From NCBI RefSeq assembly GCF_024713945.1, contig NC_134677.1:5149001-5213000 (forward strand): 64,000 nt of DNA. The letters are read 5' to 3'. Shown here piece by piece: positions 25,438 to 39,554 of the stretch (the stretch's first letter is position 1; each line of letters opens with the position of its first letter). The notes under the pieces were generated by a model. The model had not been told where the DNA came from. It did not search any database and was given only the letters and a program-made list of their open reading frames with translations. The stretch is from Dermatophagoides farinae. Its lineage: Eukaryota; Arthropoda; Arachnida; Sarcoptiformes; Pyroglyphidae. A program made the translations under genes and the position numbers.

Positions 25438-26010
25438 TCAATGTTTTTTACGATCAATTTGTGGTTCCAGAAAATGTTGACGGCCATCTTTCGGAAGCCG
25501 AAGGTATAGATGACAAAATTCATAAACAACACGAGCAAAACGCATTTTAAAAACTTTTCCGGCTAGACAATATTCGCGTATCAGATTCGATGGACAAGTA
25601 TCAATAATATGATTACAATCATACGGTTTAGCCCCATACATACGGCACCGTTCAAATGTTTGATCACATTTTTCACGTCGTTGCATCTCCATTTCATATG
25701 GTGTGTATGGCCGTTCACAAAAACATTGTTGATCACGTTCTTTTGTCTGACGAAAACCGGCCGGACATTTAAAACGGCTTCGTTCATATTGATCTTTTGG
25801 TTTTGGCGGGAAAAATACAACGAAAAAATTATCATCGGCCGCAACATTTTTTCCATGTTGATTGCGAGACGGTGACGATCCTTCCAGACTGTTATCCTCA
25901 AAATCACACGGTCGAATACAGAGATATGTTTCACGATTATCTTGGCTATCTATTGGACATTCTCGTGATTTCCATGCATTTGCTATTATATCCATTATGA
26001 TGATCACCAT
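25438..26010 (-). CDS. small secreted Cys-rich protein, unknown
   Basis: Single-exon ORF of 190 aa. A short hydrophobic start (MVIIIMDIIANA) looks like a signal peptide, with possible cleavage after ANA. The mature part has about 14 Cys spread through segments such as CIRPC, KCPAGFRQ, CFCERPY, KCDQTFERC, YDCNHIIDTC, REYC and FCHLY. The spacing does not match a domain I recognise; the CFC-ERPYTP stretch hints at a disulfide-rich extracellular module. It ends RKKH. Neighbours on the right are two further secreted Cys-rich genes. A secreted role is inferred from the leader and Cys content only. Confidence 0.6.
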   Translation of the reverse strand: MVIIIMDIIANAWKSRECPIDSQDNRETYLCIRPCDFEDNSLEGSSPSRNQHGKNVAADDNFFVVFFPPKPKDQYERSRFKCPAGFRQTKERDQQCFCERPYTPYEMEMQRREKCDQTFERCRMYGAKPYDCNHIIDTCPSNLIREYCLAGKVFKMRFARVVYEFCHLYLRLPKDGRQHFLEPQIDRKKH

Positions 26011-28086
26011 GATTGTGATGATGGAAGAAAAAATAGAAAATAAAATTTTGTTTTTAATCAGAATAAAACTATGAAAAATAAATTGTTAACTCTTCATCGA
26101 ATCGATTTTAATTCTTGAGAACAGAATGAATCAATTGTCAATTGTCATAAAACACAAGTTAATTGTATGTAATGAAATCTAATATGCATGAGTGATATCA
26201 TAGTAACATTGAAAAACACTTGCCAATTGAAATCGATAGGCTAGCCACTATGAATAATGAAATCCACAGCGATATCATTCGTATTCTTATTATTCGGTTG
26301 TTATTCGTCATTTTCATTATTTCACAATTTAAAAATTTTCACTATCGGTAAAAAACCGTATTGATATAAATAAATTGGATAAAAATCGACAAATTTCGAA
26401 TAAAATCGATGCATTTTTATAGCAAAAATTAAAAAAAAATATCAAATAGAGTTCGAGGTGTATCATTTTTTTTGTATGCAAATGAAAATGAAAACGGTGA
26501 CAAACAAATTTTGGAATTGTCATGATGACTTTTTCTATCTCTTTTTGTGTATTGATGTGATCGGTATGAACTATATTATGAAGTATCTCTTCAACAAATG
26601 ATAATTGTTTGATCATCAAACACGGACAACCTGGCCAGGAAGAAAGCCCACTAACCCAGTTCGATAATAATGTTGATGATCGAAATTTATTTCCGCATAT
26701 ACAAACATCAATAATTACCCTCGATCATGCAATCAAAATTGATAGAACACAAAACACACACACACACACAATCGATGAGAAAAATCATCAACGTAATTCC
26801 CCAACCAAAAAAAAAAAGTTCGGACAAATGTTTCCTTTTTCACCAATATATATCAGATATATCAGATCAAAGTTGATTAAACTGCTAGAGTAGAGAAAAA
26901 ACAGAAACACTTATACAAACAGCAGATAAATAAATAAAATATTGACCATATGAATTCGATTCGACGATGAGAAATTGGATCGACGATATAACAACAGCCA
27001 CGACGACGGCAGCTCAATTATATGGTAATTGGGATCGCGACAATAATATATAATATGAGATCATATCATGACCATCATCTTTGGAGCCGGTTCGTTTAGC
27101 CGTCCATTTCATCAGTTCATTCATTTTCATTGCTTCGTTGTTTTTTCCAGTCACCATTATTCATAAAGTTCTTGTATTGGATCAATTTATTCAATTTTAT
27201 CATGTAAAAAATACCTTTATGACAATCTAGGTCTAAGTAAAGTCCAGCACCAAAGTTTTACAATGTCTTTTAATGAAAAAAAAAATTATCTAGCCATCGT
27301 CTCTGCTACCTATGGTTTAATCAACTGTACGAATCAAGGGAAAGATAGAGATTGAATAAATCGATACATCTCAATAATTTTGACTTTTTTTGTTTGACTC
27401 CAACCTACTAGATAATCCTTGTCTTTCTCAACAGGTCATTCTATTTTTTCAATTTTTGCTTCTCGTCTTAAAATTTTGAGATAACAGTGCTTCGTAGTTT
27501 AACATTTCAATGGGCGGTTGTCACTATTAGTATTTTTTATTTTTTAAATTTTAACAATCATATAAGCTTAAATTTAGAAACAATAGAAAATATGCAGGAT
27601 TAGAAGGTCAGTTGATGGCTTATGGATTTTCAATCTAGTGAAAAAAAAGACAGATCGTATGGAATTTTGTCACATGTTTGTCTAGTCAATTTTTTTTTCT
27701 TCGCAAATGTACATAGTGCTCTGTCTTGTAAATATAATGGCCCATAACCATATAATTGGTCAAAATTGACTACTTTCGTCCTTCATTTGAATTAATACTG
27801 GTCTAAGATAATGGCGACAAAACAAAACTATTGAAACACTCTACTAAAGAACTATAGCCATTTATCATGTCCTAAACGTTGTTGTTGAAACTACTACATA
27901 GTACTAACACAAGCTCCAAGTCTTTCAGTTAACAAAAGTCAGTCTTTTCGAAATGTATAAATATTCGGTTTCTAATGAATCATCTCTTCATTTTACTTCG
28001 ATGTCATCATCGTGAATTTCAATAAAAAATAAAACTTCATTTTTACAAAGTATAGAATCAATCTGTTTAGGTTATCATTGACAAAA
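26011..28086. other. intergenic region, no gene seen
   Basis: About 2.1 kb between divergently transcribed secreted-protein genes. Includes a short (AC)n tract at 26755-26769 and moderately GC-richer patches at 26620-26660 and 26960-27040. No motif, tRNA or transposon recognised. Confidence 0.4.
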
Positions 28087-29015
28087 ATGACAATTTTGAT
28101 TATCAAATTTTACGATCATCATCGATCAAATCAACGATTATTGCATCATCATATCATATTCGTAATCTATTTTGCATGGCTGAGTTATACTACCATAACA
28201 AACACTTCATCATCGAATGCATTCATTCTTTCATCATCAACTACATCTAAATCGAATATTGTTCGAAGAAATGTTCCAATTGAAACAAAAACGATAGCTG
28301 TGGAGAAATGTTATTTTCATGCCAATGGTAGAACGGATGGCAAATCAATATTTTATGGACAATGTATGAGCATGAACGGACCTGATGGTTGTTGTCTTGA
28401 AGGCCATTATAAACCCGGTGTCTGTTCAAATTTGGGACATATTTGCTGTACAAATCCTGATCCAGAATGTAATGCTATGTTCACGAATAAAGGTGCTTAA
28501 TTTTCTATCACATCATCTTATTTTAATATGTCGCTTATCTTATTTTAATCTAATAAATTTTTTTGAATTTAAAAACAGGTATAACCAAATCTGCCTTGAG
28601 ACAATATGGTCATCTATTTCGGATGATTAATCAAGATCAAACTAAGAATAATAATGGTCAAAATTTGAATGAAAACAATCACAATGGTCAACAACGAGCA
28701 ATTCGTTCAAATCCTAAACAATTCAAATACATTTACAATACAAATTTTGAAATTGTCGAAATGCCTGCACATATGCAACTGGATGCTGTTACTTTCGTCG
28801 TTGATGCATTAGATCGCTTCAATGGTGATTTCGATGATGCAGCAGATTATCTTTGTCAAATGTTGGATCAAAAATATGAAGAATCAAGTCCATGGTCATG
28901 TACAATTGGCCGTGATTTTGGTTATTCAGTGGATCCATTACCCGGAAAATATATGCTATTCTACATTGGCAATGATGTTCGCGTTATGGCATTCGTTTCG
29001 AAGAACCAAAACTAA
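28087..29015 (+). CDS. secreted protein: Cys-rich module plus dynein-light-chain-like domain
   Basis: Two exons, 28087-28492 and 28579-29015; 280 aa. Residues about 20-36 are hydrophobic (IIFVIYFAWLSY) and look like a signal peptide or anchor; NIVRR near 61 could be a processing site. Residues about 75-127 carry eight Cys in the order C-C-CC-C-CC-C (GCCLEGHYKPGVC, HICCTNPDPEC). After a Gln/Asn-rich linker, residues about 192-280 align by eye with DYNLL-type dynein light chains: MPAHMQLDAVTFVVDAL, DQKYEE..W.C.IGRDFG and YMLFYIGND match the family's M..MQQDSV..A..AL, DKKYNPTWHCIVGRNFG and FIYFYLGQ. A dynein-light-chain fold behind a leader and Cys-rich module is unusual, since family members are cytosolic hubs. 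The donor GTGCTT is weak, but the join restores frame exactly at the domain. Function unknown. Confidence 0.72.
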
Positions 29016-29616
29016 TCAGTCGGCATTTTGATAACCAATAGTTGATGATCGACCATCACTTTCGATATTGTTGACACCTTTTTTCGAAAATTTACTGACA
29101 ATCATTATAACACTAATAATTGTTGTTGTTATTGTCCAGTGGCGCCAATTGTCTGAACATGGTCTTACAGTCTATTGATCAAATTATGGTCACCATCAAG
29201 AGAGAACAAAGGACCGCTGTGACAGACGTGTTTTCTAGTCGAAACAAAACGAAAAAATATGTCCCTTTTTTCTGCTGTTTCCCATCGTAGATATTTTAGT
29301 CTGTCTGCCATAGCGATTTATCACATATTCTCTTTTATCTCATCGTCGTGTCGTTTTTTTATATATATATTGCCTGCACCAATATAGCCATCACCATTGC
29401 AATCGATTTGAGAATCGTACAAGCCGAATGGAAACACAAACACACACACACACAGTAAAAGATAAAGCGATCGAATAAAAATGTAAAAAATTGTTTTTTA
29501 TTCTGTTAATTTTAATTTATTGAAAATTGTCACATCATATCATTTGAATAAATTCTGATGGGATGTTTTTTAAATTAATAGAATATGATTATGACGAATT
29601 TATTCTGGGTGGGGTT
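29016..29616. other. convergent spacer
   Basis: 601 bp between the stops of two convergent genes. Contains an (AC)n tract near 29438-29454 and AT-rich sequence; no gene recognised. Confidence 0.45.
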
Positions 29617-30196
29617 TTATTTCGTGCACACTTCTTTGGGAAATGAACAATGATCTGTAATGAATGTAAAGAGAAAATTTAAAAAAATGATATTTTATTC
29701 AAAAAAAAAAAAAAAAAAAACTCACCATAACCAGCAACACATGGACAAGCATCAACATAAGTATCAGCCTTTACCTGTGCATTAGTACATTTTTCGCCTA
29801 CATTTGCTTTTGGTTGACAGGAACGAAGTTTAGTCTCACGATCCAATTGACAGCAACCGGAACGACAATCACGTGAATAGGTACAGATTTCGCCAAGTTC
29901 ACGATGTGTCTATAAGCATCAAAAATTGATATCAAATTTGTCATCATCAAGACGATACAACTAAATGAGAAACTTACACGTCGAAGACCTTCATCGATTG
30001 GATGCTGCATCATATCATCATCACCCCAATCTTCTAATTCCATCCATCGTTCTTTTGCTTCTTCAAGATCTTTTCCCAATACTTTAAATTCGGGTTTATT
30101 TTGCTGAGCACCGGAATCGGAAATTTCAGCATTGATCATAACGAATGAAGTGGCAAATAGAGCCAATGAAAATCTGTACAAATAATCAGCCATCAT
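29617..30196 (-). CDS. small secreted ten-Cys protein, colipase/prokineticin/Dickkopf-like pattern
   Basis: Three exons: 29978-30196 (ATG at 30196), 29726-29909, 29617-29654; 146 aa, frame kept. A signal peptide (MMADYLYRFSLALFATSFVMINA) precedes an acidic segment (EEAKERWMELEDWGDDDM) and then the Cys-rich domain. The Cys order is C-x5-C-x3-CC-x10-C-x9-C-x14-CPC-x5-C-x5-C (approximate spacings), including GEICTYSRDC, RSGCC, RSCQPK, GEKC, DACPC and DHCSFPKEVC. The CC followed by a CPC is the hallmark I associate with the colipase / Dickkopf C-terminal / prokineticin-astakine (AVIT) fold. The very short last exon supplies the final two Cys, so a single-exon reading would miss them. Predicted extracellular. 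Whether it is an astakine-like cytokine, a lipase cofactor or something else cannot be told from sequence alone. Confidence 0.7.
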
Positions 30197-31004
30197 TTTG
30201 GATGTATGTAATGTAATGAAATAGTGTGCAACAATGAAGAGCTTTAAAGATTATATGATTATGGCACGATAGAAAATTCAATTTTCAAAAATGCTGATCG
30301 TCTAATGTTGGTTATAGATAGAGGTAATGATCAATAATGCTGATTTTTGGGAAATTTTCATTGATTAAATGAATGATTATATTATCAATACATCAAGGAG
30401 TACATTTGAAGGCCAACTAGTAAACATCTGACGAACAACAACGATGACCACCTTTTTCACAAAATAGCAATCGAATTGACGTTTTTTGTGAATGAATTTA
30501 ATTTCATTTATTAAATTATTATTCAAAGTTACGACGCCATATAAAACAACAACAATAACAAGATGCTCGCAAATAGGTCTCTTATTTAGAAAAAATATTG
30601 TGCTTTTTCTCTTCTCATATGTCTTACCATCAATATCATCATCAAGATTTCAGGTATAAAAGCAGTGGTCGATGCTGAAGAAGACACACTATTCAAGTCG
30701 AAACAAACCTTCGTCAAAAACGATGATAGCTGTGAGCAACAGGTTACACTCAGGCATACACTTGATCACGCGATTCAAAAACATTTGAATGATAAAAGAA
30801 ATAAAAATCTCTTGGAATGGATCGACTTTGAAACACTCAATTCATAACGTGCTCATCCTCATTGTCATTAATGATGGAAAACGAAACAACAACAAAACCA
30901 TTGACCATTGTCATTTATTAACATTGAATTTTTATTTCTATTTTAAAAGAAAAATAAAAAAATCACAGCTTAAGAATATATTTATGATAATGAGATTTTT
31001 ATGA
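30197..31004. other. intergenic region, no gene seen
   Basis: 808 bp between two minus-strand genes; must contain the promoter of the ten-Cys gene and the 3' UTR of the TAF1C-like gene. A TATAAAAG stands at 30655-30662 on the plus strand ahead of a 60-codon ORF without recognisable product. Confidence 0.4.
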
Positions 31005-38910: not shown

Positions 38911-39545
38911 ATTGGGGGGCAACTTTATAAGTGATCGGACAATTATGGTCCATACCACCATCCTCCCCAACAAATAGGTTTTATAAGCGAGGGGGAGGCA
39001 AATTTATAAGTGATTGTCCACCATCCACCCCCAACACTGACTTTTTTAAATTAATTTATGCGCAAGTGTAAATGTGTATTTGATAATTGGGGGGCATATT
39101 TATAAATGATTGAACATTATCCTCCCCAACAAATAGATTTTATAAGCAAGGGGGAGGCAAATTTATAAGTGATTGTCCACTATCCACCCCCAACACTGAC
39201 TATTTTTTAAATTACTTTATTCGCAAGTGTAAATGTGTATATGAATAATTGGGGGGCAAATTTATAAGTGATCGGCAATCACTATCCTCCCCAACAAATA
39301 GGTTTTATAAGCGAGGGGGAGGCAAATTTATAAGTGATTGTCCACTATCCACCCCCAACACTGACTATTTTTTATATTACTTTATGCGCAAGTGTAAATG
39401 TGTATATGAATAATTGGGGGGCAAATTTATAAGTGATCGGCAATCACTATCCTCCCCAACAAATAGGTTTTATAAGCGAGGGGGAGGCAAATTTATAAGT
39501 GATTATGCGCAAACCACTATCCACCCCCAACACTGACTATTTTTT
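38911..39545. repeat. minisatellite, unit about 165 bp with G6 and C5 runs
   Basis: Four consecutive units begin with ATTGGGGGGCA at 38911, 39086, 39248 and 39413, giving periods of 175, 162 and 165 bp. Each unit contains TATCCTCCCCAACAAATAG-like, GAGGGGGAGGCAAATTTATA and CACCCCCAACACTGACT segments. AATTTATAAGTGAT recurs twice per unit, so the unit is itself an ancient duplication. The G- and C-runs contrast sharply with the AT-rich surroundings. A degenerate copy follows at about 39625-39690. Confidence 0.9.
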
Positions 39546-39554
39546 ATATTAACC

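Follow-up and report, generated by a model that had tools for sequence, protein, structure and literature searches.

Dynein light chains of the LC8 (DYNLL) type are highly conserved intracellular hubs. Their peptide-binding groove is lined by Phe62, Tyr65, Phe73, Tyr75, and Tyr77, while Thr67 and His68 contact the bound peptide (excerpt of PMC3078936). Fusions of a dynein-light-chain (DLC) domain are described in trematodes, whose TAL/CaBP proteins carry a C-terminal DLC-like domain after another module and a cleavage-prone linker (excerpt of PMC5431922). In the same excerpt the fluke domain dimerises via main-chain hydrogen bonds with unconserved interface residues, and the DLC-like domain of CsTAL3 has a hydrophobic groove despite low identity, for which partner binding was suggested. 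According to the available text of PMC3317908, TAL proteins combine the DLC domain with EF-hands and are without signal peptides; its authors saw no evidence of secretion, yet the proteins can be liberated from cercariae and cultured adult worms, so that an extracellular DLC domain would not be without precedent. The EF-hand/DLC fusion is called trematode-only in the abstract of the FhCaBP4 report (PMC12347358). The prohormone-4/IDLSRF-type precursors of arthropods also have a leader followed by a Cys-rich module, together with basic sites; in prohormone-4 the module belongs to LDL-receptor class A and the tail is Cys-free, with no DLC mentioned in the excerpted text of PMC8398477.

The locus described here lies in a window of 64,000 nucleotides of Dermatophagoides farinae DNA, by which the whole analysed stretch is meant. 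Joining of positions 28087-28492 to 28579-29015 gives a two-exon open frame of 280 residues on the plus strand. If the splice is right, the DLC domain stands behind an N-terminal part absent from LC8/DYNLL proteins, which comprises the leader, the eight-Cys module, and the linker. The contrast with the TAL proteins drawn in the initial annotation agrees with the excerpt of PMC3317908, and in either exon the mite gene has no EF-hand family match up to E 1. The combination of a Cys module with a DLC domain was found in none of the listed literature matches on secreted or mite DLC proteins. Among those matches, studies of secretions that mention a dynein light chain or a TAL protein, and may therefore bear on the question, concern tick saliva (PMC4484640), hydatid fluid (PMC8935821), and Fasciola (PMC8141160).

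The predicted gene and its light-chain domain

The features of the gene are placed as follows.

27956-27963, plus strand: possible core promoter element TATAAATA, 131 bases upstream of the ATG
28087-28492, plus strand: coding part of predicted exon 1, with leader and eight-Cys module, ending in phase 1
28153-28191, plus strand: residues 23-35, hydrophobic, perhaps the core of a signal peptide or a signal anchor
28264-28269, plus strand: Arg60-Arg61, possible propeptide cut (putative cleavage)
28309-28470, plus strand: eight-Cys module, residues 75-128, C-x17-C-x8-CC-x9-C-x6-CC-x6-C
28493-28578, plus strand: predicted GT-AG intron of 86 bases, phase 1
28579-29015, plus strand: predicted exon 2, with the remaining linker, the DLC domain, and the TAA stop at 29013-29015
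28695-28706, plus strand: RAIR, furin-type R-x-x-R in the linker, residues 175-178 (putative cleavage)
28746-29012, plus strand: residues 192-280, dynein-light-chain domain of LC8 type, with residues 195-274 as its aligned core
29474-29479, plus strand: AATAAA, possible poly(A) signal; second AATAAA at 29547

The domain searches were performed with pieces of the window and not with the whole spliced protein, and some pieces carry a few intron-coded residues (28563-29012; 28087-28497 and 28288-28497, which reach the unspliced end). The DLC domain proposed earlier was borne out by the profile search, in which PF01221 matched 28728-29012 with 52.9 bits (E 4.9e-14) against a cut-off of 29.1 bits, and 28563-29012 with 51.4 bits (E 1.5e-13). 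Among 39 distinct PDB chains found by sequence up to E 1, 38 were dynein light chains or Dyn2 (best E 1.4e-10), the sole other chain being 8k3l_B (E 0.62); no TAL/CaBP chain appeared among these matches. Judging from these similarities the C-terminal domain is almost certainly an LC8 homologue. Compared with LC8 it carries three small insertions (1, 2, and 1 residues) and has most groove residues replaced; it keeps the core residues W, GR.FG, and FY.G and contains Cys228 and Cys243. The core previously quoted as DKKY..W.C.VGR.FG is present with slight differences; its actual form is DQKYEESSPWSCTIGRDFG, with two extra residues before the Trp relative to LC8. DUF5349 matched an Asn-rich stretch of the linker at E 0.019, but its 15 bits lie below the cut-off of 25, and the match was disregarded.

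The structure check was less decisive. The single-sequence AF2 model of 28701-29012 shows the LC8 order of a strand, two helices, and four strands, but with a pLDDT of 55.8, where 31 of 104 residues reach at least 70 and the swapped-strand region lies below 50. Foldseek returned 90 matches up to E 10, of which none had E 0.001 or better (best 0.012); among the best 50 of the 90, ranks 1-24 are LC8-type or about 90-residue dynein-assembly chains with TMq 0.39-0.51, and Fasciola CaBP chains stand at ranks 21, 22, and 31 with E 0.35 or worse. The model is thus weakly suggestive of the LC8 fold.

Residues of the groove are numbered here on human LC8. Overall identity to it is 25 of 76 aligned positions, among them W54, C56, G59-R60, F62-G63, Y77, and G79. 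A list of 18 groove residues was obtained from PMC11750543 (available part), and 16 of these fall within the aligned block; of the other two, Asn10 is without reliable alignment, and Ser88 is found unchanged by tblastn. Identity to human LC8 is found at 6 of the 16 positions, or 7 of 17 with Ser88 counted, the changes being N61D, S64Y, Y65S, T67D, H68P, E69L, T70P, F73Y, Y75L, and A82R. The control LC8 proteins of T. brucei, Plasmodium, and Drosophila (1rhw, presumably the fly LC8) keep 16 of 16, and that of Leishmania keeps 14 of 16, so that the control grooves are preserved from Plasmodium to fly. Outside the groove the mite protein retains 19 of 60 positions and the controls 44-56 of 59-60; in the four controls the groove is therefore the best-kept part, whereas in the mite protein it is hardly better kept than the remainder. 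With most of its groove residues replaced, the domain has probably lost the usual binding of clients. The replacement, which the initial annotation does not mention, strengthens the case for reuse outside the hub role. The example of the fluke groove, which exists at low identity (excerpt of PMC5431922), indicates that a groove may persist even where its residues have changed.

The cysteine-rich module and possible export

As had been claimed, eight Cys lie within residues 75-128 of the spliced frame, at positions 75, 93, 102, 103, 113, 120, 121, and 128, including two CC pairs, and the module is a real feature of the sequence. Eight Cys in 54 residues occur in only 4 of the 289 stop-to-stop ORFs of at least 54 codons in the window, namely, the module itself, a Cys-rich exon at 29682-29909 on the minus strand, and two ORFs resembling non-coding noise by eye. 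The module has no Pfam family up to E 10 and no match in NCBIfam, a bacterial/archaeal library. Comparison with PDB sequences gave nothing convincing: short stretches of “Cake” proteins matched repeatedly but scored poorly, and antileukoproteinase came up with E 0.11-0.62. Membership in the WAP or another known Cys-module family is not supported, there being no Pfam profile match up to E 10 and antileukoproteinase reaching E 0.11 by sequence; the WAP spacing of Cys presumably differs from that of the module, and the C-x9-C-x6-CC part has a possible likeness to beta-defensin-like spacing. The AF2 model of the module (pLDDT 48.0) was useless. The linker peptide ALRQYGHLF was considered as a sign of an IDLSRF-type neuropeptide and discarded, given the LDL-receptor class A module of prohormone-4 (excerpt of PMC8398477).

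The start of the protein was initially annotated as signal-peptide-like. Residues 23-35 indeed have the highest mean Kyte-Doolittle hydropathy of the leader (1.84), and the remainder of the protein peaks at 1.33; however, when residues 1-62 are shuffled, this value is attained in 861 of 5000 cases, so that the stretch is not unusual for its composition. It is preceded by 22 residues, five of which are His, and the one N-x-S/T site of the protein lies in the leader at residue 39. A signal-peptide-like start is plausible, and the hydropathy of the leader weakly suggests secretion. Entry into the secretory pathway is judged somewhat more probable than not, mainly because of the Cys module, beside which the leader counts with its length and moderately hydrophobic core.

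The strongest competitor, which we regard as rather unlikely, is a fused protein that is not secreted: the hydrophobic stretch would be a signal anchor or stay unused, and the product would be a membrane-bound or cytosolic DLC variant. The late position and moderate strength of the hydrophobic stretch agree with this, as does the general knowledge that LC8 proteins are intracellular as a rule, but eight close Cys with two CC pairs, the RR and RAIR sites, and the changed groove better fit the secretory pathway, and even a type II anchor would still place the module and the DLC domain in the lumen or outside.

The explanation that we infer, together with its splice, secretion, disulfides, and function of the fusion protein, is a secretory-pathway protein in which the LC8 fold serves as a dimerisation scaffold for the Cys-rich module, possibly with a cut at RAIR; as a whole it is a possible reading that falls a little short of an even chance. 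The two-exon animal gene would encode a product that enters the secretory pathway and consists of a disulfide-rich eight-Cys module with a divergent LC8 end. By analogy with the DLC-like domain of a fluke TAL protein, the LC8 fold may still homodimerise, and the homodimer would display a pair of Cys-rich modules extracellularly. A furin-type cut at RAIR in the linker may detach the module from its scaffold. Binding of the usual (K/R)XTQT client peptides would be lost. The scaffold function is a proposal built on this analogy, and Pro255 and Pro257, situated in or near the swapped strand, might weaken the dimer.

The wider view that an arthropod lineage moved the LC8 fold outside the cell, with a grooveless dimer scaffold, a new eight-Cys effector, and furin-type release, is more tentative still. 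If true, the DLC fusion would stand beside the fluke TAL proteins as an independent case, and a copy outside the cytosol without the groove would reveal the parts of the fold that have dimerisation as their sole purpose. If secreted, the protein could, as a speculation, be an exposed mite antigen.

One transcript or two

The open frame has its first Met at the ATG of 28087 (context ACAAAAATGACAA); upstream of it, one ATG at 28001 begins an ORF of four codons. Taken alone, TATAAATA at 27956 is a weak candidate for a promoter element: the window contains 17 such 8-mers versus 11.4 expected, and as many were found in 10 of 100 shuffles. The acceptor at 28579 reads TTTAAAAACAG and has open frames of matching phase on both sides. 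Between 28300 and 28730 there are 35 in-frame GT-AG pairs, nearly all of whose other donors lie inside the Cys module; two donors for acceptor 28579 were picked as reasonable by eye. The donor at 28492 (AAG|GTGCTT, 280 residues), used in the initial annotation, looks weak, and the donor at 28468 (AAT|GTAATG, 272 residues, intron of 110 bases) is equally frame-keeping. Both retain all eight Cys of the module; with donor 28468 the intron interrupts the codon of Cys128, which splicing would restore. Phase 1 introns are usual between shuffled extracellular modules. The fusion itself, as originally proposed, is supported in this one genome by the frame and the GT-AG intron, while its splice stays a prediction.

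The training set for the codon log-odds consisted of nine ORFs from the window (five having a Pfam match, two lacking one, and two outside the family scan), which scored 0.171-0.332 on their own data. In frame, the DLC part (0.291) falls within this range, followed by the linker (0.207), the Cys module (0.137), and the leader (-0.027), which codon usage does not back. Only the DLC part is clearly distinct from its other frames: reverse frames give 0.207 and 0.204 for the leader, 0.132 for the Cys module, and 0.167 and 0.126 for the linker, the other forward frames of which score -0.003 and -0.008. The measure is coarse, because a reverse frame of the short intron scores 0.316, higher than every gene piece. 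Outside the DLC part the codon test is too coarse to speak for or against the fusion.

In the alternative of two separate genes or transcripts, which we consider unlikely, exon 1 read through would encode a 137-residue Cys-rich protein, and exon 2 would belong to a cytosolic DLC protein of 130 residues starting from the Met at 28623, or to another first exon. In the unspliced exon 1 a stop indeed follows right after the module (28498-28500), the ATG at 28623 (Met151 of the spliced protein) is in frame within exon 2, a TATAAA stands at 28408, 215 bases upstream of that ATG though within the coding stretch of the Cys module, and the weak look of the donor points the same way. Against it stand the acceptor, the open frames, and their matching phase and, slightly, the linker score relative to its other forward frames, which is offset by the reverse-frame values. 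That the leader, the eight-Cys module, and the DLC domain are joined in one transcript is considered probable, with a little weight taken off by the TATAAA at 28408 and by the poor discrimination of the codon score. Decay of a drifting DLC duplicate, whose changed groove would reflect relaxed constraint and not a new role, would account for the low identity to human LC8 in groove and remainder alike, but is improbable in view of the intact frame over both exons, the in-frame score of the DLC part within the training range, and the retained core residues.

Searches for relatives and surroundings of the gene

The searches for relatives covered viral and prokaryote sequence and are uninformative on mites. 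In viral contigs the query 28701-29012 gave 6 stretches and the query 28288-28497 gave 3, with no relatives among them. The exon 2 query in the contig collection gave 2 loci from 40 stretches. Both matches fall inside bacterial ORFs (487 and 490 residues) that look Mur-ligase-like by eye and have FNGDFDDA in common; they were taken as chance and not as relatives.

The window is A+T-rich, with 24-36% G+C per 2 kb. Ten of its ORFs were scanned for families, and six were above the cut-off (CNNM, DIM1, ASH2L-type/SPRY, RRM, chitin synthase, and PID), while the remaining four comprise one Colipase match below the cut-off and three ORFs without match; this set of families agrees with an arthropod origin. 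A neighbour gene at 29682-30250 on the minus strand, the exons of which were joined by eye, has a signal-peptide-like start MMADYLYRFSLALFATSFVMINA and a Cys-rich exon that matches Colipase with 24.4 bits against a cut-off of 27; its product is presumably a colipase/prokineticin-like or prohormone-3-type precursor. At 25441-26085, also on the minus strand, lies a Cys-rich ORF of 215 codons without Pfam family, possibly another secreted protein. A tandem array occupies 38956-39551, with a 165-base unit in 3.6 copies and 93% matches.
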